DNA of 47,843 bases from Crocinitomicaceae bacterium (GTDB taxonomy: Bacteria; Bacteroidota; Bacteroidia; Flavobacteriales_D; Crocinitomicaceae). The notes beneath the pieces are model-generated. The model did no database searches. It saw nothing but the letters and a program-made list of their open reading frames with translations, and was not told the DNA's origin. Below are positions 15,096 through 45,426 of this stretch, piece after piece. The stretch is from the NCBI GenBank assembly GCA_022447665.1, contig JAKVAQ010000033.1:1-47843 (forward strand), written 5' to 3'. Within the stretch, counting starts at the first letter, position 1. Every line of letters starts with the position of its first letter. The translations under genes were made by a program, and so were the position numbers.

Positions 15096-15140
15096 AATCG
15101 AGAGAGATTTAGTAAATTCATTCTCTAATTTTATTTGAGA

Positions 15141-22282: not shown

Positions 22283-22995
22283 TGAGCAAACAAGTTTGTC
22301 AAGGACTCGTTCTACGCAAAATTGATTATTCGGATACTTCCCTAATCGTTAAACTACTAACGAAAGATCATGGTGTAAGGAGCTTCTTATTTCAAGGAGG
22401 AAAGCGCAAAAATAAACAAGGTAATATTCTTCAACCTCTGGGAATAGTTGATGTTGAATTTTATCAAAGGAGTGATAGCGATCTATCAAAAATTTCAAGC
22501 GTATCAGCCGCTAAGGTGTATCGGAACATCCCCTACGACCCTTTGAAATCAAGTATTCTATTTTTCCTTGCTGAGCTAATCCAAAAAACGGTACATGAAA
22601 ATGAAACTGAAAATGAACTATATGAGTTTGTTGAAAGTAGCTTACTGATATTAGATGAAACCGAGCATTTCTCCAATTTTGTACTTAAATTTTTGCTCCA
22701 ATATCCGCAATATTTAGGGTTTAGTTTTTACCGGGAAAATGAACCTCAATATTTTGATTATCAAGAAGCTGGTTTTGTAAAACACGAGCCAAATCATCCG
22801 TACTACCTAAACAAAGAGAAATCATCATTACTTTTGCACCTTTCAGGCATGAAATTTGATGGAATTAATGACCCTAAAATTGATTTGAATACACGAAGAG
22901 AATTGATTCATGATTTACTCAAAGTCTATAAAGTCTTTTTCGATAACTTCAAGGATATCCAGAGTCTCTCTGTCCTGGAAGTTGCGTTGCATTAG
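22282..22995 (+). CDS. recO: DNA repair protein RecO
   Basis: A 237-residue protein. The N-terminal OB-fold contains GLVLRKIDYSDTSLIVKLLTKDHGVRSFLFQGGKRKNK, followed by NILQPLGIVDVEFYQRSDSDLSKIS and a helical C-terminal domain with PQYLGF. RecO loads RecA onto SSB-coated DNA with RecR (RecFOR pathway). It starts with GTG at 22282, sharing one base with the porZ stop. The usual zinc-finger cysteines are absent, as in many Bacteroidota RecO proteins. The TonB receptor gene starts inside its 3' end. Confidence 0.9.
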   Translation: MSKQVCQGLVLRKIDYSDTSLIVKLLTKDHGVRSFLFQGGKRKNKQGNILQPLGIVDVEFYQRSDSDLSKISSVSAAKVYRNIPYDPLKSSILFFLAELIQKTVHENETENELYEFVESSLLILDETEHFSNFVLKFLLQYPQYLGFSFYRENEPQYFDYQEAGFVKHEPNHPYYLNKEKSSLLLHLSGMKFDGINDPKIDLNTRRELIHDLLKVYKVFFDNFKDIQSLSVLEVALH

Positions 22996-25375
22996 CATCC
23001 TTATTCTACTTATTTCATCCGCATCATTTGGGCAAACAATTACTATTATCGATAGTACCGATAGTAGACCAATAGAAGGTGTTTTTATCAGCTCAAAATC
23101 TAATCCTACTGGAATCTTGACCAATGAGAAAGGTCAAGCCTCTTTAGCGAGTTTTCAAGCTGGAGAGTACCTTAAAATAATGCATTCCGGTTTTAATACT
23201 GTTCATATACTTAAGGAAAATGCGGTTAACAAAGGGACATTGCTCATCGCTGAAAAAGCTTACAACTTAAATCCCGTTTATATTGATCATCCTTTGCGTT
23301 ATTTTTTGGTGGAAGAAGACGAGGCAGGACAAATTCAAACAATACCTAGTGAAATCGCACTCTTAGAAAATCCAGGAACAACAGCAGACCTGCTTCAAAA
23401 CTCTGGTAATGTGCTGGTTCAGAAGTCACAAAGAGGTGGTGGAAGTCCAATTATTAGAGGATTTGAAGCCAATAAACTTCTTTTGGTTATTGATGGTGTA
23501 AGAATGAACAATGCCATTTACCGAAGTGGACATTTACAAAACTCTATTACTATTGATAATGCTGTGCTCGATCATACCGAAATAATCTTTGGGCCGAGTT
23601 CTTCTCTTTACGGGAGTGACGCCCTAGGTGGAGTAATGCATTTCCATACTAAAAATCCTGAATTAAGTAAAACAGATACCATGTTGTTTAGCGGATCTAG
23701 TTTTGTTCGTTATAATTCAAATGATAGCAGAAGTGCGAATTTCAATTTCTCGATGAGTAAAAATAATTGGGGACTCCTGTCCTCTTTCACTGCGAGCCAG
23801 TTCAATGATACTAGAATAGGGACTAATCGCACTCATGGCTATTCTGATTGGGGACTTCATCCAGAATATGCTGGATTAACCTCTAACGGATTAGATACTG
23901 TTTTGGCAAACTCAGACCCTCGATTGCAAAAATTCTCGGGCTATACACAATTCGATTTCTTGGAAAAGTTCGTCTACGAACCATCCGACAAAATGAGATT
24001 GACACTTAACTTTCAATATTCCACTTCTACCAATGTATACCGGTATGATAAATTAACCGAGTATAGAAATGGTACATTACGATGGGCAGAATGGTATTAT
24101 GGGCCTCAAAATCGCCTGTTTTCCATGGCAAAACTGGATATTAAACCTGAAAAATCTTGGGCTAATTCTGGTACAATTGCTTTTTCTTATCAAAGAATTG
24201 ACGAGGATAGAATCAGCAGAAGATTTGGATCTGATTTTAGAGAGCATCAAGAAGAAGATGTTCATGTACTTGGCCTAAACCTTGACTTTAATAAACTTTT
24301 CTCTCGTTCACGTATGCTATTCTATGGACTCGAAGTACAACACAATATTGTGAACTCAACCGCCTACGAGCAAAACATTTTTAGCACAGAAAGAAATAAT
24401 GCACAAACTCGTTATCCGGATTTCAGCAATTACTTAACAAGTGGAGCCTACATTGAGTACAAACAAAAATTCTCTAATCGCGCGGTTTTCTCGGCTGGTT
24501 TCCGGTATAGCTTTATCATGGCAAATTCAGAATTCCGTGATACTTCATTCATCAACCTCCCTTTTAATGAGGTAAATTTCATGACTAGTGCTCCTTCAGG
24601 TCACGTAGGAATCGTATTAAAACCCGATACGAATACACTAATTAAACCTTTGATCACAACAGGTTTTAGAGCGCCTAATGTGGATGATTATGGAAAAGTA
24701 TTCGAAAATAGTGGTTTCACTGTGGTGCCGAATGACAACATAAAACCTGCTTTTGCTATAGGTTCAGAGCTTACCCTAGAACGAAACTTCTTTGACAACT
24801 TTCTTAAACTATCCTCTACAGTATACAGCACATATTTATTCAATGCCATTGTGAGGAGAGACTTTCAGTTAAATGGTCAAGACTCCATCTCTTACAACGG
24901 TCAAAACACAAAAATTCAGGCCAATGTGAATACGGCCAGAGCGCTAGTTTACGGGGTTAGTGCAACGATGCAATTTAACTTTACTAAGAACTTCAACTTC
25001 TTATACACCTATAACTTCACCAAAGGTACAGATTTAAGCAGTAACTCTCCAATGAGTCATATTCCTCCACAGTTTGGTAAAATTGCTTTTACCTACGCTG
25101 ATAAAGCGTTTAACGGTAGCCTTTATACTTATTATAATTTCAGAAAGAATCTTTGCGATTACGGCGGTGGTCCGGATAATCTGGACCTAACACCAAACGA
25201 AGAGGGAACGCCTCCTTGGTGGACGCTAAACATTAGAATAGGGTATCATTTCTTAGAGCACTTTACCCTGCAGTTTGCGGTGGAGAATATCCTTGATGTT
25301 CATTATCGCCAATTTGCTTCAGGGATTTCAGCACCGGGAAGGAACTTTATTGGTGCAATTCGCTTTAATTTTTAA
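22982..25375 (+). CDS. TonB-dependent outer-membrane receptor
   Basis: About 797 residues. The TTG at 22982 gives a compact signal peptide (LRCISILILLISSASFGQ) and only a 14-bp overlap with recO; an ATG at 22910 would add 24 residues before the signal and overlap recO by 86 bp. After the signal comes a CarboxypepD_reg-like domain (IEGVFISSKSNPTGILTNEKGQASL). Next is the plug (TTADLLQNSGNVLVQKSQRGGGSPIIRGFEANKLLLVIDGVRMNNAIY... FGPSSSLYGSDALGGVMHFHTK) and a 22-strand-type barrel ending in GAIRFNF with the terminal Phe. It imports a ligand using TonB energy; the plug resembles haem/vitamin-type receptors more than SusC. No SusD partner is present. Confidence 0.9.
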   Translation: MRCISILILLISSASFGQTITIIDSTDSRPIEGVFISSKSNPTGILTNEKGQASLASFQAGEYLKIMHSGFNTVHILKENAVNKGTLLIAEKAYNLNPVYIDHPLRYFLVEEDEAGQIQTIPSEIALLENPGTTADLLQNSGNVLVQKSQRGGGSPIIRGFEANKLLLVIDGVRMNNAIYRSGHLQNSITIDNAVLDHTEIIFGPSSSLYGSDALGGVMHFHTKNPELSKTDTMLFSGSSFVRYNSNDSRSANFNFSMSKNNWGLLSSFTASQFNDTRIGTNRTHGYSDWGLHPEYAGLTSNGLDTVLANSDPRLQKFSGYTQFDFLEKFVYEPSDKMRLTLNFQYSTSTNVYRYDKLTEYRNGTLRWAEWYYGPQNRLFSMAKLDIKPEKSWANSGTIAFSYQRIDEDRISRRFGSDFREHQEEDVHVLGLNLDFNKLFSRSRMLFYGLEVQHNIVNSTAYEQNIFSTERNNAQTRYPDFSNYLTSGAYIEYKQKFSNRAVFSAGFRYSFIMANSEFRDTSFINLPFNEVNFMTSAPSGHVGIVLKPDTNTLIKPLITTGFRAPNVDDYGKVFENSGFTVVPNDNIKPAFAIGSELTLERNFFDNFLKLSSTVYSTYLFNAIVRRDFQLNGQDSISYNGQNTKIQANVNTARALVYGVSATMQFNFTKNFNFLYTYNFTKGTDLSSNSPMSHIPPQFGKIAFTYADKAFNGSLYTYYNFRKNLCDYGGGPDNLDLTPNEEGTPPWWTLNIRIGYHFLEHFTLQFAVENILDVHYRQFASGISAPGRNFIGAIRFNF

Positions 25376-28650: not shown

Positions 28651-29082
28651 TTAGAACCAACCTGCTCCTAAATTACGGAACGGCCATGGAATGCTTACCA
28701 GTACTATGATGAAAGCGATGGTATAGAAAACCGCAATCTTTTTATACTTCGCTGCTCCTTCAGCTTTCTTAGATTTTGAATGCCCAATGGTGATAAGAAC
28801 GAATGCAATTGTCATGGCAACAATATGTTCAACAGCATAAAAACGATAGTAGGTATCTCCCATTATAAACTGAATTTTTCCAACAGCAACATTATTGAAA
28901 TAAAGCACCAATCCTATCAAGTATTGAACATGGAATGAAATCATTGCAAATAAGAAGATCTTTCTATCTCCTTCTACAAAATCTGTTTTCTTTCTACCCG
29001 CAAATGCCTTCGCAATCGCTGTTAACATAAGAATTAAAACCACCCATCTTAATCCGGAGTGTGCATGTACCAACATGTTCAT
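28651..29082 (-). CDS. Small four-TM membrane protein, cytochrome-b-like annotation type
   Basis: A 143-residue protein with four hydrophobic helices. The first begins MLVHAHSGLRWVVLILML, and the third and fourth follow YRFYAVEHIVAMTIAFVLITIGHSKSKKAE. His residues sit at the ends of helices 1 and 3 (HAHSGLRW, VEHIVAM) and near IGHS, which is why such proteins are often labelled cytochrome b; haem binding is not shown. Bacteroidota genomes commonly carry this family. It heads an operon with hflX, and the 36-bp gap to the divergent amidohydrolase gene holds a -7 box. Confidence 0.75.
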   Translation of the reverse strand: MNMLVHAHSGLRWVVLILMLTAIAKAFAGRKKTDFVEGDRKIFLFAMISFHVQYLIGLVLYFNNVAVGKIQFIMGDTYYRFYAVEHIVAMTIAFVLITIGHSKSKKAEGAAKYKKIAVFYTIAFIIVLVSIPWPFRNLGAGWF

Positions 29083-29101
29083 ATAATGCGTATTTTTACG
29101 C

Positions 29102-29109
29102 CAAATTTA
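29102..29109 (-). promoter_or_regulatory. Candidate -7 promoter box for the small membrane protein/hflX operon
   Basis: TAAATTTG on the minus strand, 19 bp before the ATG at 29082. It overlaps one end of a short inverted repeat, GCGTA-TTTT-TACGC (29088-29101), lying between the divergent starts. Confidence 0.4.
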
Positions 29110-29118
29110 CTGTTTTTA

Positions 29119-32100
29119 ATGCGTCTCCTCACCATTATCGGATTAATTCTGATGAGCTCTTTTGGGTTTTCTCAAAACATAGCTCCCGAAAATGACACGC
29201 ATGATCCAGATAACACCATTTATGCACTCACCAATGCAAAGGTTTATATTTCAGCTGATGAAGTTGTTGAATGGGGTACTCTAATCATTCAAAATGGACG
29301 GGTTCAATCAGTCGGTCTAGCGGTTGTTCCTCCAAGAAATGCTGTTAAAATAGATATGAAGGGATATTCTATTTATCCTTCATTCATAGAAATTTATTCG
29401 GGTGATGGCGTGCCTGTTAAGGGGTCTACACATAAAGGATATTCACCTCAGCTAAATACATTAAAGGAAGGACCCTATTATTGGAACGAATCTGTGCATC
29501 CTGAGGTAGATGCTTTTGAGCACTTTAGGGCAGAAGAATTTAAATCTAAAAAGGAATTTAGAAGTCAAGGATTTGGAATGATTTCAACGCACTACGCAGA
29601 CGGTATTGTGCGAGGAACATCGGTTCTTATGGCGATTATGGATGGTACAACTGGAGATGCTGTTTTAAAAGCAAGGGCCGCTAGTCATTTTACTTTATCT
29701 AAAGGTAGATCGAGACAAACCTATCCTTCTTCTCAAATGGGTGCTATTGCCTTAGTTCGTCAGTTTTATTATGATGCTATTTGGTACAACAATGTTACCA
29801 ATGCAGATAAAGACAATGTTTCTCTTGTTCGTGGTTTGGAGAACCTAGACTTACCTCAAATTTTCAAGGCGAGGGACAAACTTGAAATACTTCGAATAGT
29901 AAAAATTGCTAAAGAGTTTGAATTCCCAGTCATTGTAAAAGGTGCTGGTGATGAGTATAAAAGAATACAGAATATTAAGGAAAGTGGTGCAAAGCTTATT
30001 CTCCCTGTAAACTTTCCAGAGCCATACAATGTTACGGATCCTTACCTTTCAAGATTTGTAAATCTCTCTTCGCTTAAAGATTGGGAACTTAGACCTTACA
30101 ACCCTTATATCGCTTATAAAAACGGAATTCCATTCTGTCTCACTACTTCTGGACTTAAAAAGAAATCTGACTTCTTAAAGAACGTGCGCAAGGCTGTTAA
30201 ACACGGCCTTCCAAAAAATGAAACCTTAAGAAGTTTGACACAAAATCCTGCAGAATTTTTAGAAGTCTCGCATGACATTGGAGACCTGAAAGAAGGAAAA
30301 CTCGCCAATTTCATAGTGGTTAAAGGAGACCTTTTTGAAGATGGCGTTATCTATGAAAACTGGACCAAGGGTAAACGAAAAGTATTCAAGGAAATACATA
30401 AACCAGACCTTTCAGGGGATTATAATTTAAATGTAGGAAAGGAAGCCATTAATCTCGTAATTGGTGGAACAACATCAGCTCCAACAGCCAAAGTAAGAGT
30501 GTTTAACTCAACAACAGATACAATATCTGGTTTACCTCAAGCAGATACAGTTGAGACTAAAGCGAACATTAGCATTAGCGATTTACAAGTAAGTATTTCG
30601 TTCGTATTGGAAGATAAAGGCTTATACCAATTGAACGGTGTTTACAATGAGAAATTTGGGATTTTAGATGGCTCTGGAACCACGCCTAATGGAGACTGGG
30701 TGAACTGGAGTGGAATAGGAAGCGGTAAAAAGAAATCTACCAAGGATAAAAAATCATTCGATGTAGATACTTTGGCCGTAAATAATATCTACTACCCCAA
30801 TATGGCTTACGGATTTGACTCCTTACCAGAAGCTCAATCTATATTTATCAAGAACGCCACTATATGGACGAATGAAGAGCAAGGGATTTTAAAAGATGCA
30901 AATCTTCTTATTCAAGATGGAAAAATTAAATCGGTAAATAGTTCGCTACTTCAAATTCCAAATAATGCCGTTGTGATTGACGCAGATGGAAAACATGTTA
31001 CTTGTGGAATCATTGATGAACATTCGCACATTGCTATTTCTAGAGGGGTTAATGAAGGAGGTCAAAATAACTCGGCAGAGGTCTCTATTGGTGATGTCGT
31101 TCGCTCGGATGATATCAATATTTACCGTCAATTATCGGGTGGAGTTACCGCAGCGCAATTATTACATGGCTCGGCAAACCCAATTGGTGGTCAATCAGCT
31201 TTAGTGAAATTAAAATGGGGCTTTACTCCAGAAGAAATGCTAATTGAGAATGCACCGAAATTCATAAAATTTGCGTTAGGCGAAAATGTAAAACAATCCA
31301 ATTGGGGCAGTTTTGCAACAATTCGTTACCCTCAGACCAGAATGGGTGTAGAACAGGTCTTCTATTCCTCATTTATTCAAGCCAAAGAATATCAGAAAAC
31401 ATGGGCAGAATATAATGCGCTTTCATCTAAAGAAAAAGAAGCTACTTGCGCTCCAAGAAGAGATTTAGAACTTGAAGCAGTTGCCGAGATCCTCAGAAAG
31501 GAACGTTTTATTACTTGTCACTCTTACGTTCAGAGTGAAATTAACATGCTCATGCACGTTGCCGACTCAATGGGCTTTACAGTAAACACCTTTACACATA
31601 TACTTGAAGGATACAAAGTGGCTGATAAAATGCTAGAGCACGGGGCTGGTGGCTCTACTTTCGCTGATTGGTGGGCCTATAAATTTGAAGTAAATGATGC
31701 TATTCCTTACAATGCGGCCATCCTTCATCAAATGGGGATTGTAACCGCTATAAACTCTGATGATGCTGAAATGGGAAGACGATTAAATCATGAGGCGGCG
31801 AAGGCTGTTAAGTATGGTGGTGTCTCAGAGGAAGATGCATGGAAAATGGTAACATTGAATCCAGCTATCTTACTTCATCTGGATGACAGAATGGGAAGTA
31901 TTAAAGAAGGAAAGGATGCCGATATTGTGATATGGACAGACAATCCGCTTTCTGTTCAAGCCAAGGTTGATAAAACCATAATCGACGGAATTATTTTATA
32001 TGATTTTAATAGAAGTTTAAGACTTCATAGAAGAGATATGATTGAACGCAAACGTATTATGCAGCTAATGCTAGAAGAAGGTAAAAAGGATGGAAATACG

Positions 32101-32169
32101 CGTAAACCTTCTCCTAAAGAACATCACTTATACCATTGCGATTCTATTGACGAACACGACAACCACTAA
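29119..32169 (+). CDS. Periplasmic two-domain amidohydrolase-family protein (first domain metal-site degenerate)
   Basis: About 1016 residues from ATG 29119, which begins signal peptide MRLLTIIGLILMSSFGFSQ; the in-frame ATG at 29059 would put 20 extra residues ahead and overlap the divergent gene. Two amidohydrolase (imidazolonepropionase-like) modules lie in tandem. Module 1 (about 30-430) has the composite beta sandwich (NAKVYISADEVVEWGTLIIQNGRV) but reads PSFIEIYSGDG where the metal-binding HxH should be, and has no clear catalytic Asp. Module 2 (about 560-1000) keeps H635-S-H637, H801, H827 and D881, so it is probably the active one. The next gene starts on its stop (TAATG). Confidence 0.85.
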   Translation: MRLLTIIGLILMSSFGFSQNIAPENDTHDPDNTIYALTNAKVYISADEVVEWGTLIIQNGRVQSVGLAVVPPRNAVKIDMKGYSIYPSFIEIYSGDGVPVKGSTHKGYSPQLNTLKEGPYYWNESVHPEVDAFEHFRAEEFKSKKEFRSQGFGMISTHYADGIVRGTSVLMAIMDGTTGDAVLKARAASHFTLSKGRSRQTYPSSQMGAIALVRQFYYDAIWYNNVTNADKDNVSLVRGLENLDLPQIFKARDKLEILRIVKIAKEFEFPVIVKGAGDEYKRIQNIKESGAKLILPVNFPEPYNVTDPYLSRFVNLSSLKDWELRPYNPYIAYKNGIPFCLTTSGLKKKSDFLKNVRKAVKHGLPKNETLRSLTQNPAEFLEVSHDIGDLKEGKLANFIVVKGDLFEDGVIYENWTKGKRKVFKEIHKPDLSGDYNLNVGKEAINLVIGGTTSAPTAKVRVFNSTTDTISGLPQADTVETKANISISDLQVSISFVLEDKGLYQLNGVYNEKFGILDGSGTTPNGDWVNWSGIGSGKKKSTKDKKSFDVDTLAVNNIYYPNMAYGFDSLPEAQSIFIKNATIWTNEEQGILKDANLLIQDGKIKSVNSSLLQIPNNAVVIDADGKHVTCGIIDEHSHIAISRGVNEGGQNNSAEVSIGDVVRSDDINIYRQLSGGVTAAQLLHGSANPIGGQSALVKLKWGFTPEEMLIENAPKFIKFALGENVKQSNWGSFATIRYPQTRMGVEQVFYSSFIQAKEYQKTWAEYNALSSKEKEATCAPRRDLELEAVAEILRKERFITCHSYVQSEINMLMHVADSMGFTVNTFTHILEGYKVADKMLEHGAGGSTFADWWAYKFEVNDAIPYNAAILHQMGIVTAINSDDAEMGRRLNHEAAKAVKYGGVSEEDAWKMVTLNPAILLHLDDRMGSIKEGKDADIVIWTDNPLSVQAKVDKTIIDGIILYDFNRSLRLHRRDMIERKRIMQLMLEEGKKDGNTRKPSPKEHHLYHCDSIDEHDNH

Positions 32170-33482
32170 TGAGATATTTGTTGACATACCTCTTAATTTT
32201 TGCTTCGATACTCTCGTTCGGACAAGGGTTTTCGCCTATTCTTAAGCAGTATGATTCTTATGTGCTGGTAAAAGGTTTTTGTCATACAGGAACTGGTGAA
32301 GTAATCCCATCATCTGTAATTGGTGTAAGAGAAGGAAAGATTGCTTTGATTAAAAATGCCCTGACCTATGAGGTTGTCGAAGCAGAATGGGATACCATAA
32401 TTGATATTTCTGGAAAGCATATTTATCCTGGATTTATAGCGCCAAACTTAACGGTAGGTTTAACTGAAATTGATGCCGTAAGAGCAACAAATGATTTTAG
32501 AGAAGTTGGTTTATTCAATCCAAATGTTCGTGCATTAATTGCTTTTAATGTTGAATCCAAAATCATTGGAACGCTTCGAACAAATGGGGTTCTTGTAACA
32601 CAAGCTACCCCGCGAGGTGGATTTATCTCCGGAACATCATCAATCATGGCCTTAGAAGGTTGGAACTGGGAAGACGCCGTCTACAAGCAAGATGATGGAA
32701 TTCATTTAAACTGGCCAAGAAAGTATAACTCGAGCGGTTGGTGGGCAGAACCGGGGCCAAGTACAAAGAGCAAAACCTATGATGATCACAAAACACAAAT
32801 CTACAATTTCTTCAAAAGAGCTGAAGCATATGCGAAAGAAAAGAATCCGGATAAAAGTGATTTAAAAATGGAAGCCATGCGTGGCGTTTTTAGCGATGAT
32901 AAACGTGTTTATTTCCATGCTGATTTTGCGCCTGAGTTAAACGATATCATAGATTTTGCTAGAGAATTTAAAATTAAATACCCAGTGATCGTAGGTGGTT
33001 ACGATGCTGCAATGTTAGCGGATAGAATTAAAGAAAATGGATTTAGTGTAATGATTGGACGCCCTCATTCCTTGCCAAAATTTGAAGACGATATCACCTT
33101 TGCACCATACGAGTTGGCCTATAAACTTCAAGACAAGGGAATCCTGTTTTGTATTGAGTCTTCTGGGGAAATGGAAGCGATGAATACTAGAAATTTACCA
33201 TTCCTCGCAGGAACCTGTTGGGGGTACGGTTTAAGTGAAGAAGCGGCCGTTGCTGCTATAACGCTGAGCCCTGCGAGGATCATGGGTATTGACGATCGTT
33301 TAGGTTCTATAGAAATCGGTAAAGATGCCACCTTATTCGTATCGGAAGGGAATGCACTTGATATGCGCACTAATCGAGCATACCTGGCTACGGTGAAAGG
33401 CAATTTTATTGCTTTAACGAGCACTCAAATTGAGTTGTATAAGCGCTATGCAGCAAAGTTTGGCTTGAATGCTAAGCCATAA
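32169..33482 (+). CDS. Periplasmic amidohydrolase-family protein lacking the usual metal ligands
   Basis: A 437-residue protein with signal peptide MRYLLTYLLIFASILSFGQ. The fold signatures are present: the sandwich domain GEVIPSSVIGVREGKIALI, KHIYPGFI, then PVIVGGYDAAMLADRI, EEAAVAAITLSPARIMGIDDRLGSIEIGKDATLFV. However, the HxH after PGFI is replaced (APNLTVGL), and the late Asp region reads FCIESSGEMEAMN. It parallels module 1 of the preceding protein. The coupled start suggests equal production and perhaps a complex, with this subunit acting as a scaffold or substrate-binding partner. Its end overlaps the glutathione peroxidase gene by 11 bp. Confidence 0.82.
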   Translation: MRYLLTYLLIFASILSFGQGFSPILKQYDSYVLVKGFCHTGTGEVIPSSVIGVREGKIALIKNALTYEVVEAEWDTIIDISGKHIYPGFIAPNLTVGLTEIDAVRATNDFREVGLFNPNVRALIAFNVESKIIGTLRTNGVLVTQATPRGGFISGTSSIMALEGWNWEDAVYKQDDGIHLNWPRKYNSSGWWAEPGPSTKSKTYDDHKTQIYNFFKRAEAYAKEKNPDKSDLKMEAMRGVFSDDKRVYFHADFAPELNDIIDFAREFKIKYPVIVGGYDAAMLADRIKENGFSVMIGRPHSLPKFEDDITFAPYELAYKLQDKGILFCIESSGEMEAMNTRNLPFLAGTCWGYGLSEEAAVAAITLSPARIMGIDDRLGSIEIGKDATLFVSEGNALDMRTNRAYLATVKGNFIALTSTQIELYKRYAAKFGLNAKP

Positions 33483-38088: not shown

Positions 38089-40392
38089 TTAAAAGGCGGC
38101 CAGCTCTGGTATCGTAGTTTTCTCTGTAGGGAAATAGTGGTCTTTGAATACTACCTCGTCGCCTTTTTTTATTTCTAAGTAATATTTGTACTTCTTCTTG
38201 CTAAAGCATCTCTTTTGTAGCTTTTTGGGAATTTTTATCATGAACTCCGTAGGCGACAAAAACTCCAGTTCTAATCCATTTTCTTCTACAAGTAGAAATT
38301 CTTCACTTTCGTTAATACCTACTACTTTAAGGTCAACTTGCTGCTTCTTTGGATTATCCGAAACAAGCGTTAATTGCAATTCATTACCTATTTCTTCCAG
38401 CACTCCAATAATTGGTTGATAATACTTTCTCACGACCTCGGCCGCTTCTTTAAATTCACCAGAATAATTTCGGATACTCCAGGAAGGGCCAGGCCAACAA
38501 TCATTCAATTGCCAAAATAATGTACCCATGCAATGAGGTGTTTGAATTCGATGTTGAGAAATAGCTATTTGATAAGCATGCGCCTGCACATATTGGCTAT
38601 AATCAATCCAAAATAAAAATGATAAATCTTTCTTAATAAAGGCCTTAACATTTTCATCAATTAATCCATTACCTACATAACTTTTTTGTCTGTTCTTAAT
38701 GGTTTCAGAATCAAAATTCATTTCCTCTTCTGGAATGTAGTTAAGAAGGTATTCGTATTTAGGAAAAGACTGGAAACCATATTCTGCCATAAACCTTCCC
38801 ACATTAGTTTTATACCCTTCAAATGGATCTCCTCCATGCCATACCCCCCAATAATGCATAGATGAATGATTAAAGTTTTCAGCTTTGCCCCAATTACTCA
38901 GAGGAGAAGTAGAAACGTAAGGCACAGTATTGTCCGTGTATTCCAATAATTCGGGTATAAACTCTTGAAATAAAAACTGATAATGAGCCTCTATTTCTGT
39001 TTGATCAAGTTCTGACCAATTGTAGGTTTTTTCCCAACCCCAGTTCTTTAATGCTACATCAATTTCATTATTACCACAATACATAATTACGGATGGATGT
39101 TTTGACAGTCGCTTTACGTTATCAATAATTTCATAGGCCATATTAGCTATAAAAACAGTGTCATTGGGGTACATAGAATTAGCAAACATGAAATCTTGCC
39201 AGACCATGATGCCTTTTTCATCACATAATTCATAGAACTTTTCACGCTCATAAATTCCACCTCCCCATACACGCAACATGTTCATGTTTAAATCTACCGC
39301 ATCTTGAATTAAACTATCGTAATCAGAATCTTCAACTTCATTTAAGAACAAACTTTGAGGTATGTAATTGGCTCCCTTGGCAAATACCGGTTGGTCATTA
39401 ATTTTGAAATAAAATGAAGTGCCTTTATCGTCTTTTTCTTGAATTAACTCTACTCCTCGCACCGCAAATACTACTTCTTCTCTTGCTACTTCTTCACCCT
39501 TCCTATTTTTAACCAGTAAAGTCTCCCTATATAAATGAGGATTTCCATAACCAATTGGATACCATAATTCTGGCTTATTAATACTAAAGTTGATTTGACA
39601 ATTATTTACTCCTTTTATATGGTCATGATGATTATAATTCTCTCCCATAAATTCGATCTGGTACAATTCAAATGGATTACAATTGAGCTGATATTCTAGA
39701 ACCATTTCAGCGGAATCTGAATATAAATTTTTGGTAAAGACAATAGGCTTCATCAAATTTACATTATCCCACGCATTCAATTCTATCGGTCTCCAAGCGG
39801 AAAAGGTCACAATTCGAGGACCCCAATCCCAACCAAATTGATAGGCGGCTTTGCGTGTATAAGGCGAAACTTTTATTGGAATATCTTCCCCCTCATTGGC
39901 AGCGGGCAATTTGTAAGGCGCATTCAAAACCTTTTCCTTATTGAATTCAATCGGTGATAAAAAAACAAGTCTTAATTCATTTTCCCCCTTTTCTAAAAAC
40001 TCCTTTATATCCACCCTCCATTCACGGAACATGTTTTCTGCAAACAGTATTAATGAATCGTTCATATAGATTTCACAATAGGTGTCAAGACCTAAAAACG
40101 CAAGCTCAACATGCTTGTGATTCAAAAGTGAATCGTTGGTCATCAAAATAGTTCGGTATTCCCAACTTTCATTCTCTACCCATTGTACTTTTTGCTCATT
40201 ATTCGCATAATACGGATGCTCAATTACTCCATTCTCGATAAGGTCTAAATGAACATCTAAATACTTAGCTGGTAGCCATTTTTCGTCTTTTGTATTCTTA
40301 AACTCCCATGTATTGCCGCGTAGATCATCATTTTCAAATCCAAAAGAATTCGAGGTGATTATAAATGAAAATATGAAGAATAATATTCTCAT
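38089..40392 (-). CDS. Beta-mannosidase (GH2)
   Basis: A 767-residue protein with signal peptide MRILFFIFSFIITSNSFGFE, so periplasmic. GH2 features: an N-terminal sugar-binding domain, Ig-like domain, and TIM barrel with NMLRVWGGGIYEREKFYELCDEKGIMVWQDF. The acid/base is Glu443 in CGNNE and the nucleophile Glu537 in MAEYGFQSFP. RVWGGG and WQDFMFA are typical of beta-mannosidase rather than beta-galactosidase. It hydrolyses terminal beta-mannose, including the Man-beta-1,4-GlcNAc bond of N-glycan cores. It is the last gene of the operon; its ATG shares one base with the cutC stop (TAATG). Confidence 0.93.
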   Translation of the reverse strand: MRILFFIFSFIITSNSFGFENDDLRGNTWEFKNTKDEKWLPAKYLDVHLDLIENGVIEHPYYANNEQKVQWVENESWEYRTILMTNDSLLNHKHVELAFLGLDTYCEIYMNDSLILFAENMFREWRVDIKEFLEKGENELRLVFLSPIEFNKEKVLNAPYKLPAANEGEDIPIKVSPYTRKAAYQFGWDWGPRIVTFSAWRPIELNAWDNVNLMKPIVFTKNLYSDSAEMVLEYQLNCNPFELYQIEFMGENYNHHDHIKGVNNCQINFSINKPELWYPIGYGNPHLYRETLLVKNRKGEEVAREEVVFAVRGVELIQEKDDKGTSFYFKINDQPVFAKGANYIPQSLFLNEVEDSDYDSLIQDAVDLNMNMLRVWGGGIYEREKFYELCDEKGIMVWQDFMFANSMYPNDTVFIANMAYEIIDNVKRLSKHPSVIMYCGNNEIDVALKNWGWEKTYNWSELDQTEIEAHYQFLFQEFIPELLEYTDNTVPYVSTSPLSNWGKAENFNHSSMHYWGVWHGGDPFEGYKTNVGRFMAEYGFQSFPKYEYLLNYIPEEEMNFDSETIKNRQKSYVGNGLIDENVKAFIKKDLSFLFWIDYSQYVQAHAYQIAISQHRIQTPHCMGTLFWQLNDCWPGPSWSIRNYSGEFKEAAEVVRKYYQPIIGVLEEIGNELQLTLVSDNPKKQQVDLKVVGINESEEFLLVEENGLELEFLSPTEFMIKIPKKLQKRCFSKKKYKYYLEIKKGDEVVFKDHYFPTEKTTIPELAAF

Positions 40393-41099
40393 TAATGCTT
40401 TTCCAGAATGGCTACGATGTCATCAATCTTTTTGGTGTCCGTGATAGTTCTGTGCCCCATGAATATTTTGTGATCTGGTGACTTGAGTTCCGTCCTCGCT
40501 TGGAAATGAACCGCATCTATTCCTGAATTTAAATACTCCTGAACATTAGTTTCATCAATACCACACCCGGCCATTATTTCAATTCTCCCGTTAGCTACTT
40601 TTACCATTTCTTTAATGGTTTCAATTCCCTCACCAACAGTAGGTTCTGCACCAGAAGTAAGAATTCGATCAAAGCCCAACTCTATTAATTTCTTCACCTG
40701 CTCAACAGGTTGATTGCTAAGATCAATTGCTCTATGGTAGGTCACACCAAGTCCTAACGATTTTGCCTTATCGAGAAGACGTTTATTCAAAATCATATCT
40801 ACCTCTCCATTCGCGTCTAAAATCCCAAAAACAACTCCATTTCCACCAGCATGAGCAACGGCTTCAATATCACTTTCCATTGATTGAATTTCATTTTCTG
40901 AATACTCAAATCCTCCAGCAACAGGACGAATCATAACATAGACTTCGGCTGAGCACTTATCTACACATGCTTTAATCATTCCGTAACTAGGAGTGAGACC
41001 TTCGTCCGACAAAGCGCCACATAATTCAACTCTTTTAGCACCTTTACTTCCTGCATATATCGCAGTATCCACATGATCTAGACAAACTTCAAAATCCAT
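40392..41099 (-). CDS. cutC: CutC family TIM-barrel protein
   Basis: A 235-residue protein matching the CutC family: EVCLDHVDTAIYAGSKGAKRVELCGALSDEGLTPSYGMIK, VYVMIRPVAGGFEYSENE, GVTYHRAIDLS and ILTSGAEPT, IEIMAGCGID. It has no signal peptide, so it is cytosolic. The family was named for copper homeostasis in E. coli, but copper binding is not evident from sequence and the role is doubtful in many genomes. Here it is the third gene of a glycan operon, joined to its neighbours by one-base stop/start overlaps on both sides, which argues for a role in sugar metabolism (inference). Confidence 0.92.
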   Translation of the reverse strand: MDFEVCLDHVDTAIYAGSKGAKRVELCGALSDEGLTPSYGMIKACVDKCSAEVYVMIRPVAGGFEYSENEIQSMESDIEAVAHAGGNGVVFGILDANGEVDMILNKRLLDKAKSLGLGVTYHRAIDLSNQPVEQVKKLIELGFDRILTSGAEPTVGEGIETIKEMVKVANGRIEIMAGCGIDETNVQEYLNSGIDAVHFQARTELKSPDHKIFMGHRTITDTKKIDDIVAILEKH

Positions 41100-43351
41100 T
41101 ACCTTACAATAATCTCATCAATAAATATCCACGCTGGTGAACCCGCAGCTTCGTGCCCATTTGGTACCTTACCAATATTTTCGGCAGTAACTCGAATATA
41201 TCTCGCTTGAACACCTAATTTTCTATCTGAAGAAAGAGAAACCTCTTTGATCGATTTTACATTAGAGAGATCGGGCTCCTCATTTTCTATTTCTCCTAAA
41301 ACAGTCCAGCTTAAGCTATCTACAGAGTATTCTACACGTACTTTTTCTGGAAGAAAAATCCATGAATTAGCGTATTGATAGAAATTCATTTGGACTGTAA
41401 TAATATACTCGGGTTGTCCTAAGTCGATGGTTGAAATCATATCTGTCCCCCAGTATCCATGCCAGGTTCCATCTCGAAAATCCAATGACCCAACGCGTCC
41501 ATCAACTAAGTTATTAGTTTCATATCCAGCATACCAATCACTCCATTTGTATTTATAATCAAATCCTGCATTTAATGCTTTGTGTTTTACAAAACTTTGC
41601 GTAATTGGTTCTCCATATAATTCTTCATTCTTATATGCCTGAACCATTAACTTGCCATCATTAATTGAGAATGGCTCTTGGTAGTCTTTCCAATCAGACT
41701 CATTTCCCCATTTATACTTTAAGGAAAGATTATCAAGATTTGACTCTAAAAGAATGCTTACTTCGTGGTCAAATTCGAGGTTAATATTGGCCCCAATTGT
41801 TTCCAATCCATAATTAATTCCCCAAAACTTAAGCACGGGATAATGCGTTTGAAGTCGATTATAAAAAACATCAAACTCCCTACTCTTATCGTATGTCCAT
41901 AATACTTCAGCTAAACCGATCATTCTCGGAAAAACTTTCGAGTCTAAATTTTCTTTGTCAGGAACATGTTCTGTCCACATATTACATTCTCCTCCGATAA
42001 TATATTGATGATAAACCTCATCAAGCTCTTCCGGGATCGGATCAAAAGAGTAGATTTTTTCCAAGTCTATTGACTTTAAGGAATAATCTAAATAACAGTG
42101 ACTGGTAGGAGACATGATTACGCGATGTTCGGCTTCAGCAGCTTCAATTCCACCCTCAAATCCCCGCCAAGATTGTACAGTTGCATTCGGTGAAAGGCCG
42201 CCTTCTAAAATTTCATCCCATCCAATTAATTCGCGTCCATTTTCATTTAAGAATTTCTCTATTCGTTCTATGAAATAACTCTGTAATTCATGCTCATCCT
42301 TCAATCCTTCTTCTTTCATTCTCTGTTGTGATTTTGGACAATTCTCCCAACGATACTTCGGTGCTTCATCCCCTCCAATGTGGATATATTTAGAAGGGAA
42401 TATCTCCATAACTTCGGTTAAAACATCTTCTAAAAATATGAAGGTACTATCATTACCTGCACAATAGATTTCCTTAAATACTCCCCAATCATTGGCCACC
42501 TCAATTGGTCCGCCAGTGCATGATAAGTGAGGATAAGCTGCTAAAGCCGCTTGAGAATGTCCAGGCAATTCAATCTCAGGAATTACGGTAATTTTTCGCT
42601 CCTCTGCATACGCTACAATTTCTTTCAAATCTTCCTTTGTATAAAATCCGCCGTACATTTCTCCCGTACTGTCTTCTCGCCAAGAAGAAACTTCATTTAG
42701 CAAAGGATATTTATCGATAGGCATGCGCCAACCTTGATCTTCCGTCAAGTGAAAATGAAGCGTATTCATTTTATAAAAGGCCAAAAGATCGATATATTCC
42801 TTAACTATCTCTTTATCAAAGAAGTGACGGCAAACGTCTAGTAACATTCCTCTATGCTCAAATGCTGGAGCATCCTTAATTGATAAAACCGGCATTTTCC
42901 ATTTGTTTCTTTTCTCACCTTCATGAAAGGCTACCGGTAAAAGCTGGCGTATTGTTTGAAAGGCACGAGCCAAACCTTTATCCGTTTTACCTATTATTTC
43001 TAATGAATGAACCGTTGCATTGATTTCATAGGCCTCTTCACTTTCAGAAGTGTTTAGAAAATCCGTTTCTCCTACCTTAATATTTACTTCCGATACATTT
43101 GAATTAGAAGCGATGTCCAGTTGATAATTGATTAAATCTTCTAGATAAGTATTTTCCTCTGTACCTTGGGAATAAGTGTATGTGGTATTTGAATAGAACC
43201 AAAAGTATTCGTCCTCTGATTGAGTCATTTCAAGAGGAGCAGGAATTAGTTCGAGATAAGAATCTTCTATGATTTCAGTCACTACTTCTTTCTCCGAGGA
43301 AGAACAACCTAAGAGTAATAATGCAGTCAATGGAATCCAGAGTTTTACCAT
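41099..43351 (-). CDS. Beta-N-acetylhexosaminidase (GH20) lipoprotein with C-terminal discoidin-like domain
   Basis: A 750-residue protein with lipoprotein signal MVKLWIPLTALLLLGCSSSEK (Cys16). The residues after Cys are Ser/acid-rich, compatible with surface export. A GH20 N-terminal domain (about 30-150) is followed by the barrel: FEHRGMLLDVCRHFFDKE, NTLHFHLTEDQGWRM and the catalytic Asp328-Glu329 in HIGGDEAPK. The last 140 residues resemble an F5/8-type C (CBM32-like) domain. It removes terminal GlcNAc/GalNAc by substrate-assisted catalysis. The second gene of the operon, it overlaps the aspartylglucosaminidase gene by 7 bp and cutC by one base. Confidence 0.93.
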   Translation of the reverse strand: MVKLWIPLTALLLLGCSSSEKEVVTEIIEDSYLELIPAPLEMTQSEDEYFWFYSNTTYTYSQGTEENTYLEDLINYQLDIASNSNVSEVNIKVGETDFLNTSESEEAYEINATVHSLEIIGKTDKGLARAFQTIRQLLPVAFHEGEKRNKWKMPVLSIKDAPAFEHRGMLLDVCRHFFDKEIVKEYIDLLAFYKMNTLHFHLTEDQGWRMPIDKYPLLNEVSSWREDSTGEMYGGFYTKEDLKEIVAYAEERKITVIPEIELPGHSQAALAAYPHLSCTGGPIEVANDWGVFKEIYCAGNDSTFIFLEDVLTEVMEIFPSKYIHIGGDEAPKYRWENCPKSQQRMKEEGLKDEHELQSYFIERIEKFLNENGRELIGWDEILEGGLSPNATVQSWRGFEGGIEAAEAEHRVIMSPTSHCYLDYSLKSIDLEKIYSFDPIPEELDEVYHQYIIGGECNMWTEHVPDKENLDSKVFPRMIGLAEVLWTYDKSREFDVFYNRLQTHYPVLKFWGINYGLETIGANINLEFDHEVSILLESNLDNLSLKYKWGNESDWKDYQEPFSINDGKLMVQAYKNEELYGEPITQSFVKHKALNAGFDYKYKWSDWYAGYETNNLVDGRVGSLDFRDGTWHGYWGTDMISTIDLGQPEYIITVQMNFYQYANSWIFLPEKVRVEYSVDSLSWTVLGEIENEEPDLSNVKSIKEVSLSSDRKLGVQARYIRVTAENIGKVPNGHEAAGSPAWIFIDEIIVR

Positions 43352-44352
43352 TCTTTCTCGTATTCAGCGTCTACCATTTCGTCCATCTCATCAGTTTTTA
43401 CAGCAATGTTAAATCCAGCATAAACTGAATGACAACCGAAATTTCCGTTCTTGTCCAGTGCTATAAACCCTACTTGAAGATTATCCAGATTATCATGTTT
43501 AGCGATAATTCTAGCAACAGCCTCTTCACAAGCTTCTTGCGGAGTTTTTCCGTGTCGCATAAGTTCTACGACTACGGCGCTGCCAGCAGTTCTTATAACT
43601 GCCTCTCCAACACCTGTTGCACAAGCGGCACCAATCTCGTTATCTACAAATAGTCCTGCTCCTATTATTGGTGAATCACCAACGCGTCCGTGAAGCTTAT
43701 ATGCCATGCCGCTTGTAGTACAAGCTCCAGATAGGTTTCCTTCTCCATCAATAGCCAACATCCCAATTGTATCGTGATTTTCAGAATTAATTACGGGCTG
43801 GTATTCTGATTCTTCCAACCATTTTTCCCAAGCTTCTTTTGCCTTTGGCGTTAATAAATCGGTTTTTTCAAATCCATTTTCGAGTGCAAATTGCAAGGCT
43901 CCTTCACCAGCAAGCATTACATGTGGAGTTTCATCCATTACTTTACGTGCAACGGAAATCGGATTTTCAATATGTTTTAAGAAAGCGACTGCACCACAGT
44001 TTGAGTTCTCGTCCATGATGCAGGCATCAAGCGTTACATTTCCTTCTCTATCAGGCAATCCGCCTAAGCCAACGCTCATATTTTCTGGGTCTGATTCTGT
44101 TACCCGCACACCTGCTTCTACTGCATCTATTGCCTTACCTCCATTCTCTAATATCTTCCAAGCGGCAGCATTTGCTTCTAACCCATGATTCCAAGTAGAA
44201 ACGACAACAGGTTTTGTTATTATAACATCTTCTTTTTTATCTGGAGTAGATTCAATTTCCTGATTCCCCTCCTCAGAAGCGCAGGCGATTGGTACAACAA
44301 CGGCAGCACTTCCAATAGCGGAAATTTTAATAAAGTCTCTTCTTGATTTCAT
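43345..44352 (-). CDS. N4-(beta-N-acetylglucosaminyl)-L-asparaginase (aspartylglucosaminidase)
   Basis: A 335-residue Ntn-hydrolase with a Tat signal (SRRDFIK) merging into a lipobox (PIACAS, Cys24). Family motifs: MSVGLGGLPDREGNVTLDACIMD, HDTIGM with autoproteolytic/nucleophilic Thr195, and HGRVGDSPIIGAGLFVDN, all close to human AGA and Elizabethkingia glycosylasparaginase. The precursor should self-cleave before Thr195. It hydrolyses the GlcNAc-Asn bond of N-linked glycans after peptide removal. The first gene of the operon, it has an inverted repeat across its start codon. Confidence 0.94.
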   Translation of the reverse strand: MKSRRDFIKISAIGSAAVVVPIACASEEGNQEIESTPDKKEDVIITKPVVVSTWNHGLEANAAAWKILENGGKAIDAVEAGVRVTESDPENMSVGLGGLPDREGNVTLDACIMDENSNCGAVAFLKHIENPISVARKVMDETPHVMLAGEGALQFALENGFEKTDLLTPKAKEAWEKWLEESEYQPVINSENHDTIGMLAIDGEGNLSGACTTSGMAYKLHGRVGDSPIIGAGLFVDNEIGAACATGVGEAVIRTAGSAVVVELMRHGKTPQEACEEAVARIIAKHDNLDNLQVGFIALDKNGNFGCHSVYAGFNIAVKTDEMDEMVDAEYEKEW

Positions 44353-44418: not shown

Positions 44419-45426
44419 CTATTGCGAAATGATCTCAATATCAAAGATTAACGTAGCTTTCGGAGGGATTTTACCTCTACCTGCTTCACCGTAAGCCAAC
44501 CAGTAAGGTATGATTAATTTGATCTTTCCTCCTATTTGACCTAGAAGTACTCCTTCCTCCCATCCCATAATTACTCTTCTTTGACCAGGAACAAATTCAA
44601 AAGGTTTTCCGCGGTCTACAGAAGAATCAAATTTTGACCCATCTGTAAAATAACCTGTATAATGAACGGTCACTTTCTTCCCTTCCACAGGATTTTCACC
44701 ATCTCCTTCTTCAGTAATCTGATACATTAAGCCAGATTCTGTTTGCTCAGCGTCTGGATAACTAGGCTCCATTTCTGACTTAAAGGCTAAGTTTCTAATA
44801 AGCACGCGTTCCGCCTCTTCTTTCTTGCGTTGATTCAACATTTTAGGGAATATTTTATGCGCCTTGAATTTCTTTGCAGCCTTTCCATTTCGAATGATTG
44901 TAATACTTTCTATAATATCACCCGTTCTAATGTTATCTACAACATCTTGGCCTTTAACTACATGCCCGAATACCGCATGTTTTCCATCCAGCCAAGGCGT
45001 TTCTTTGTGTGTTATAAAGAATTGCGAACCATTTGTGTTTGGTCCAGCATTCGCCATTGATAGAATCCCTGGTCCAGTATGCTTTAATGAAGTGTCGATT
45101 TCATCTGGAAAGAAATACCCTGGATTTCCAGAACCCGTACCTGTAGGGTCTCCGCCTTGAATCATAAAGTTTTGGATAACTCTGTGGAAAGTAACACCAT
45201 TGTAAAAAGGCTCTGAAATTCTTACCGTATCATATTTGAGTTTTCCTTCTGCCAAAGCAACAAAACTTGCAACTGTCATCGGAACTTTTTCAAATTCTAA
45301 CTGAAGTATAATGTGTCCTTTTGCTGTTGAAATGTCAGCGAATAATCCATCACCTAAATCTTCATTTTGTGCCCACAAATTCTGTGTAAATGCAATTGCC
45401 AGAATTAACCCAAATAACTTTTTCAT
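44419..45426 (-). CDS. Exported cyclophilin-FKBP fusion peptidyl-prolyl isomerase
   Basis: A 335-residue protein with signal peptide MKKLFGLILAIAFTQNLWAQ. Residues about 25-195 are a cyclophilin domain (GVTFHRVIQNFMIQGGDPTGTGSG, GILSMANAGPNTNGSQFFIT, LDGKHAVFGHVVKG). A charged linker (195-230) leads to an FKBP domain (about 240-335: GKKVTVHYTGYFTDGSKFDSSVDRGKPFEF, VIMGWEEGVLLGQIGGKIKLIIP, YGEAGRGKIPPKATLIFDIEI). Both domains keep their core active-site residues. It should fold secreted proteins in the periplasm. Dual-family immunophilins are known but uncommon. It has its own -7 box at 45450-45443. Confidence 0.93.
   Translation of the reverse strand: MKKLFGLILAIAFTQNLWAQNEDLGDGLFADISTAKGHIILQLEFEKVPMTVASFVALAEGKLKYDTVRISEPFYNGVTFHRVIQNFMIQGGDPTGTGSGNPGYFFPDEIDTSLKHTGPGILSMANAGPNTNGSQFFITHKETPWLDGKHAVFGHVVKGQDVVDNIRTGDIIESITIIRNGKAAKKFKAHKIFPKMLNQRKKEEAERVLIRNLAFKSEMEPSYPDAEQTESGLMYQITEEGDGENPVEGKKVTVHYTGYFTDGSKFDSSVDRGKPFEFVPGQRRVIMGWEEGVLLGQIGGKIKLIIPYWLAYGEAGRGKIPPKATLIFDIEIISQ

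Follow-up and report, generated by a model that had tools for sequence, protein, structure and literature searches.

Why the gene of a CutC family protein, annotated elsewhere as a copper protein, should lie inside an operon of glycoprotein-degrading hydrolases is the question raised by a 47,843-nucleotide stretch of DNA (the window) from a Crocinitomicaceae bacterium (assembly GCA_022447665.1, contig JAKVAQ010000033.1). The operon consists of four minus-strand open reading frames. The first is for an aspartylglucosaminidase (AGA, a glycosylasparaginase; positions 43345–44352, 335 residues; PF01112, 243.7 bits against a cut-off of 27), and it is followed by a GH20 β-N-acetylhexosaminidase (41099–43351, 750 residues; PF00728, 382 bits), the CutC family protein (40392–41099, 235 residues; PF03932, 202.5 bits against a gathering score of 23.3), and a GH2 β-mannosidase-like enzyme (38089–40392, 767 residues; PF22666, 173.5 bits). 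All four family matches are well above their curated cut-offs. The AGA and GH20 genes overlap by 7 bp (43345–43351), and the GH20/CutC and CutC/GH2 junctions are one-base TAATG overlaps (at 41099 and 40392). This gene order and these overlaps, described in a first-pass annotation of the window, are exact in the open reading frame list and the junction sequences. The operon is probably an end-stage salvage module for N-glycans, with CutC as a cytosolic amino-sugar salvage enzyme that acts on an incoming product. Almost every sampled Bacteroidota genome with CutC also has AGA, and CutC is therefore probably a sugar-salvage enzyme.

The co-occurrence was counted in a first draw of 247 Bacteroidota genomes, 76 of which have CutC. 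AGA-type genes (at least 175 bits) are present in 122 of the genomes, and strict ones (at least 290 bits, or split halves of at least 57% identity) in 101, the limits having been set by eye among the matches listed. An AGA-type gene is found in 75 of the 76 CutC genomes, and a strict one in 70. The odds ratio between CutC and AGA is 198 (AGA-type) or 53 (strict), by Fisher tests that ignore phylogeny, while the control families GH92, GH43, and Cu-oxidase_2 have odds ratios with CutC of 6.7, 5.4, and 4.3, respectively. Since each of these controls is positive over the whole set, gene-rich genomes have a general effect, and the association with AGA is far above it. Within the class of the window (61 genomes), 50 have both genes, one has only CutC, none has only AGA, and ten lack both. 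In a second draw, made up of 188 genomes of this class and partly overlapping the first, 60 have both, four have only CutC, 18 have only AGA, and 106 have neither (AGA limit E 1e-60; two sub-cut-off CutC matches, in G253 and G359, were left out). The E limit can miss an AGA that is split in halves, and the four 'CutC only' genomes are therefore an upper bound. Among the second-draw genomes absent from the first draw, 41 of the 44 with CutC have AGA. One CutC match in the first-draw search has in-frame stops, the only one to do so (L110, in G037), and its genome keeps AGA on another contig. In eight genomes with no CutC match (G026, G054, G038, G163, G175, G100, G042, and G089), AGA and GH92 are about 2 kb or less apart, so another arrangement of AGA exists.

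The two genes are also physically linked. In 36 of the 76 CutC genomes, from nine families, no more than 2 kb separate AGA from CutC, where random placement would give about 0.1 such cases. The neighborhoods were compared in 154 CutC loci (three of 157 were dropped for having no usable CutC open reading frame; L126/L038 and L124/L259 are duplicate fetches of the same genome). AGA is the commonest neighbor within four genes, in 47 loci (two with weak matches of 36–37% identity, in Pasteurellaceae), followed by an ATP-binding cassette (ABC) ATPase cluster in 19 loci, at scattered positions. For the 115 loci in which the sequence extends 8.9 kb to either side, AGA is within 3 kb of CutC in 41 and at 5.9–8.9 kb in none; any N-glycan or amino-sugar family is within 3 kb in 52 and at 5.9–8.9 kb in six. 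Recurrent ArgS, FabH, DNA polymerase I, TonB receptor, and RNase Y neighbors, among others, look like local synteny. A survey of CutC neighbors across Bacteroidota, as suggested in the first-pass annotation, finds recurrent linkage to AGA, GH2, and GH20 and strong co-occurrence, and the refuting outcome named there, a lack of such linkage in related genomes, is not observed. The linkage to AGA is nonetheless missing in many genomes, among them three members of the family of the window (G041, G360, and G387), whose CutC and AGA are on different contigs. An AGA-like gene (36–37% identity to the window AGA by blastp) is within 3 kb of CutC in the Pasteurellaceae loci L118 and L120, and the Histophilus locus of this family also has a phosphotransferase system (PTS) EIIC gene.

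The gene order of the window recurs in relatives, which is more than chance would give. It was followed in 20 loci. Of these, 18 come from the 28 top CutC matches outside the window in an order search in 249 genomes, and two more (G381 and G264) were chosen because AGA is near CutC, so that the set is non-random and favors window-like CutCs. GH20 is directly upstream of CutC in 18 of the 20 loci, GH2 is downstream in 17, AGA precedes CutC on the same strand in 11, and in ten the four genes share one strand. With the first start codon taken for each open reading frame, GH20 runs into CutC by 1–10 bp in 16 of the 19 loci that were measured, and the 7-bp overlap of AGA and GH20 is also found in L250, L251, and L254. 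GH92 and major facilitator superfamily (MFS) genes are convergent with the operon in L253, L255, L256, L264, and L116 (by tblastn, and in L253 also by Pfam). Locus L268 carries MFS, ROK, GH20, AGA, CutC, GH2, and GH92 genes on one strand (tblastn, open reading frames, and Pfam), with cytochrome c, sulfur-transport, and DUF559 genes intervening. Some relatives thus have beside the operon the GH92 gene whose absence there was pointed out for the window in the first-pass annotation. The GH92 genes that belong with this operon are of considerable length, with 969 to 1024 codons in L253, L111, and L268. In L111, L050, L253, and L268 the C-terminal part of GH92 is hit by the GH20 query as well, and L253 has a weak F5/8 match.

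By similarity, the AGA of the window is a true glycosylasparaginase. Its nearest solved structures are the bacterial glycosylasparaginases 3ljq and 1p4k (413 bits to 1p4k), whereas the best isoaspartyl/asparaginase-type structure has only 143 bits. The entry 1p4k is presumably the enzyme of Elizabethkingia (Flavobacterium) meningoseptica, which shares the HDTIG site and, by an approximate count, is identical in about 180 of 280 columns (about 64%). The autoproteolysis motif HDTIG is at residues 193–197, and Thr195 is aligned to the first residue of the solved β chain (1ayy_B). The protein is below the equivalog cut-off of the NCBIfam β-aspartyl-peptidase model PRK10226 (147.1 against 567 bits). 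For GH20, the nearest solved structure is the β-hexosaminidase 6q63 (477 bits); the catalytic GGDE is at residues 326–329, and an F5/8-like domain at the C terminus scores slightly under its cut-off (26.2 against 27.8 bits). GH2 is closest to the β-mannosidase 2vjx/2je8 (505 bits over residues 27–758), with the motifs GNNE at 440 and AEYGF at 536. We take these two motifs, like those of the other hydrolases, to be catalytic.

The leaders of the proteins were read by eye. GH20 has a lipobox (LLGC), GH2 a plain signal peptide, and CutC no signal peptide. AGA has a twin-arginine leader (SRRDFIK) that ends in IACAS and may accordingly be a lipoprotein or a cleaved protein of the twin-arginine translocation (Tat) pathway. 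The locations suggested earlier (two lipoproteins, one periplasmic protein, and one cytosolic protein) are predictions from such leaders; GH20 as a lipoprotein is sure, and AGA is ambiguous.

Other parts of the system are encoded elsewhere in this 4.06-Mb genome of 84 contigs, in which single copies of CutC, a PF01112 protein, GH92, and GH18 were found. The GH92 gene is on another contig and overlaps a ROK kinase gene, which in turn overlaps an MFS gene, so that the predicted α-mannosidase, sugar kinase, and permease form a separate second cluster. A paralogy reading was dropped because searches of the genome gave no further CutC, PF01112, or GH92 gene. No match to GH92, GH18, or SusD was found in the 29 of the 32 window open reading frames of at least 150 residues that were scanned, and the one TonB receptor in the window (22910–25375) is 12.7 kb from the operon. 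The absence of an adjacent SusCD pair, GH18, or GH92 thus stands for the open reading frames scanned, but GH92 does exist, split onto another contig. By gene content, one system would cover GlcNAc-Asn (GlcNAc being N-acetylglucosamine), core mannose, β-GlcNAc, and α-mannose with AGA, GH2, GH20, and GH92, respectively.

A pathway can be proposed from the families of the hydrolases and their conserved catalytic motifs. In the periplasm, GH20 would cut off β-GlcNAc, GH2 would cut off the core β-mannose, and AGA would cleave GlcNAc-Asn to aspartate and 1-amino-GlcNAc. The sugars would then be taken into the cytosol, probably via the MFS permease that is encoded with GH92 and the ROK kinase on the other contig. 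There CutC would act on the imported product, as its linkage and co-occurrence suggest. Its substrate is most likely the 1-amino-GlcNAc released by AGA, or else GlcNAc or GlcNAc phosphate, and the reaction is a guess. For Lactobacillus casei, 1-amino-GlcNAc is described as not metabolizable itself, as unstable in acid, and as decaying without an enzyme (PMC6960285). A neutral cytosol would therefore gain from an enzyme for this compound. CutC may be the enzyme so far lacking in glycoasparagine catabolism, a glycosylamine hydrolase or deaminase that converts 1-amino-GlcNAc (or its 6-phosphate) to GlcNAc and ammonia at neutral pH, a tentative proposal that we consider rather doubtful in this specific form.

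The CutC protein itself is closest by sequence to human CutC among solved structures (3iwp, 149 bits) and is below the cut-off of the NCBIfam equivalog PRK11572 (181 against 311 bits). The predicted model is a TIM barrel (predicted local distance difference test score 95.9) that superimposes on 3iwp with a Z score of 35.0 and a root-mean-square distance of 2.0 over 233 aligned residues. The nearest folds outside the family are MJ1099 in complex with phosphoribosyl pyrophosphate (Z score 21.6), hexulose-6-phosphate synthase (20.4), and aldolases (19.3 or less); these matches are phosphate-binding sugar barrels and include deoxyribose-phosphate aldolase. There is also a weak match to the IMP dehydrogenase family PF00478 (21.6 bits, under the cut-off of 25.6). 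None of the best 50 fold matches per list was recognized as acting on a glycosylamine, an absence that is uninformative. Among 155 CutC proteins, Glu4, Glu25, Asp126, Gly150, and His198 are invariant, and Arg23, His122, and Arg123 differ in one to four. All eight residues are located on or just past the predicted strands of the barrel, and TIM-barrel enzymes have their active site on or just after these strands. From its conserved residues and predicted fold, CutC looks like an enzyme.

Loci in other phyla place CutC near similar genes. A CutC match is present in 66 plasmid records, of which 27 were examined (19 annotated, six unannotated, and two enterobacterial). Amino-sugar or N-glycan genes are near CutC in 16 of the 19 annotated loci (four counted for a kinase only) and in five of the six unannotated ones (one, L202, for a kinase only). 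Five of these 21 positive loci are thus counted for a ROK or BadF-type kinase only, and two positive Pseudoalteromonas loci are near copies. With the six Bacteroidota and two enterobacterial records taken out, 17 of 19 loci are positive. In Sinorhizobium, a ROK-CutC pair is near nagA, a GlcNAc kinase gene, and MurQ; Paracoccus has nagA, ROK, CutC, and nagB; Loktanella has GH20, an M81 peptidase, MFS, CutC, and nagB; and Hymenobacter has GH92, ROK, and an AGA-CutC pair. Genes for M81 (MlrC-type) metallopeptidases are near CutC in L212, L215, L211, L191, and L199, and such a peptidase is a possible further partner for glycopeptides. In Alkalihalophilus (L217), a peptide ABC transporter, a leucyl aminopeptidase, and CutC are followed by α-L-fucosidase and ROK genes, a locus that resembles a glycopeptide module.

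Several observations weigh against a salvage role of CutC tied to AGA. AGA occurs without CutC in 47 of the 122 AGA-type genomes of the first draw (31 by the strict cut) and in 18 of the 78 AGA genomes of the second, so CutC is not always required; these many genomes speak for a CutC step that is helpful rather than essential. CutC occurs without AGA in G230 in the first draw (in six genomes by the strict cut) and in G230, G319, G339, and G367 in the second. No searched amino-sugar or N-glycan family is within 3 kb of CutC in 63 of the 115 loci of the distance test. Outside these sets, the stretches fetched for the Parabacteroides, Cetobacterium, and Enterococcus plasmid loci have no sugar genes, the CutC genes of E. 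coli and Klebsiella have a VOC gene, argS, and cmoB as neighbors and no amino-sugar genes, and the other named non-Bacteroidota loci of a genome scan with a 9-row alignment (best 80 of 588 matches) are mixed. AGA is apparently exported and CutC cytosolic, so the two would not meet directly. At the upstream end of the pathway, no endo-β-N-acetylglucosaminidase could be assigned in the genome (the type of the single GH18 is not settled, and peptide N-glycosidase was not searched for). For animals, a review concludes that the evidence on CUTC points to copper homeostasis (PMC11083455).

In a broader role within the same metabolism, CutC could be a general amino-sugar enzyme, such as a mutarotase, 2-epimerase, or phosphosugar isomerase on GlcNAc or GlcNAc-6-phosphate, and its tie to AGA would then come from the supply of GlcNAc. 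This is a substantial possibility, though clearly short of an even chance. Alphaproteobacterial and Pseudoalteromonas loci in which CutC is located by nagA, nagB, SIS, ROK, or BadF-type kinase genes with no AGA in the stretch shown are consistent with it, as are the phosphate-binding sugar barrels among the fold matches and the weak PF00478 match. However, CutC in Bacteroidota is tied much more tightly to AGA than to GH92, and nagB is within 3 kb of CutC in only two of the 115 loci. The pair might also have been carried along by shared inheritance with no functional link, which we regard as very improbable. Much of the linkage is indeed by descent, and the genomes behind the Fisher tests are not independent. 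Nevertheless, in one genus (g8) the 11 genomes with CutC also have AGA and the three without CutC also lack an AGA match, although the two genes are adjacent in only three of these 11 (in two they share a contig at a large distance, and in six they are on different contigs). Moreover, same-strand and divergent arrangements of CutC and AGA both recur, and a quick tree of the 155 CutC proteins (60 of 151 inner branches are weak) requires at least 19 changes of the AGA-linked state.

A copper role of CutC is weakly supported, and that CutC is a copper-handling protein encoded here by chance is very unlikely. The Cys6-Cys27 pair presumably corresponds to Cys31 and Cys52 of human CUTC, the pair proposed for Cu(I). 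Cys27 is found in 154 of the 155 CutC proteins, as a copper protein would suggest, and both cysteines are present in the window CutC, but the pair is complete in only 112 of the 155 and in 18 of 47 AGA-linked CutCs. The association of CutC with Cu-oxidase_2 is comparable to the background and lends copper no particular support: within the class of the window its odds ratio is 1.5 (p 0.72), compared with 1.8 for GH43 and 2.9 for GH92, and in the other classes it is 4.6, compared with 3.5 and 3.9. In favor of copper are the name, the older genetics, the weak binding of one Cu(I) by each monomer of human CUTC, and the greater copper sensitivity of human cells and worms after knock-down, though a role as a chaperone or in trafficking is held to be unlikely in the same review (PMC11083455). 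Overexpression of cutC in E. coli gives more copper tolerance, which its authors ascribe to the sigma-E response (PMC6338753). The family ranges from bacteria to humans, and its annotation is that of a copper protein even though the founding E. coli phenotype, copper sensitivity, is traced entirely to the small RNA MicL in the locus (PMC6538781, citing Guo 2014). As for the operon as a whole, its substrate might be chitin, mannan, or peptidoglycan oligomers instead of N-glycans, which is unlikely. BtMan2A is, we assume, the nearest solved relative of the window GH2. GH20 and GH2 are broad families, and BtMan2A favors short manno-oligomers (PMC9232400). On the other hand, AGA resembles enzymes that cleave GlcNAc-Asn, and some relatives add GH92, a family whose characterized members are all α-mannosidases (PMC9522356).

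The salvage of N-glycan stubs put forward in the first-pass annotation is supported, and so is the placing of CutC in glycan or amino-sugar metabolism, which is strengthened by its linkage and co-occurrence with AGA. The loci in other phyla and a published Xanthomonas region lend further support. The nix N-glycan region of Xanthomonas includes cutC (XAC3091), and the asparaginase XAC3092 is named as N-glycan related (PMC6718126, PMC5700972). Compared by description, it resembles the window in having N-glycan hydrolases with cutC, with cutC and the asparaginase at consecutive locus tags, but it is a larger region that also has a TonB receptor and additional hydrolases, and it belongs to a plant pathogen. 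Its authors read cutC as copper resistance, and the linkage of cutC to N-glycan genes is thus already in print, without a functional link. The alf-2 operon of L. casei, for fucosyl-GlcNAc-Asn, is similar in its MFS, glycosylasparaginase, and ROK genes, which salvage GlcNAc-Asn and give 1-amino-GlcNAc, and differs in having an intracellular fucosidase pathway and, as far as the published gene list goes, no CutC (PMC6960285). A search of the open-licence literature found no paper linking CutC to aspartylglucosaminidase or glycosylasparaginase and no report of a reaction for the CutC family. The complex N-glycan genes BT0455–0461 of Bacteroides thetaiotaomicron presumably include 2je8 (GH2) and 6q63 (GH20), and we know of no AGA or CutC in that cluster. 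The CutC gene of the same organism, BT4416, appears among tabulated iron-dependent genes (PMC10434189). Compared with known N-glycan systems the operon is a compact variant, and what is new is the dependence between CutC and AGA. The analysis also singles out a probable compact N-glycan salvage module with no SusCD pair beside it, and the strong tie to AGA gives a concrete substrate list for the CutC family. If the glycosylamine reaction were true, the whole family, including human CUTC, would have a function, and the copper name could be retired.

Around the operon, promoter and terminator scans give counts near those of shuffled sequences (27 against 22.8, and 4 against 4.1), and no promoter or terminator is therefore claimed. 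No Rfam match at gathering scores and no tRNA were found in the whole window. A cyclophilin-FKBP fusion (Pro_isomerase and FKBP_C in one protein; 44419–45426) is 66 bp upstream of AGA on the same strand. The open reading frame at 19979–22282 has the same length as the GH2 gene, a coincidence, as it encodes PorZ. It is located beside a very large protein with a type IX secretion tail (15135–19916), and a second such protein is at 5548–10401; one of the two has SprB repeats and the other SBBP repeats. RecO (22282–22995) and the TonB receptor open reading frame share 86 bases, and the receptor may start further in. Two tandem genes of the amidohydrolase family (1036 and 437 residues; 29059–33482) overlap by one base.

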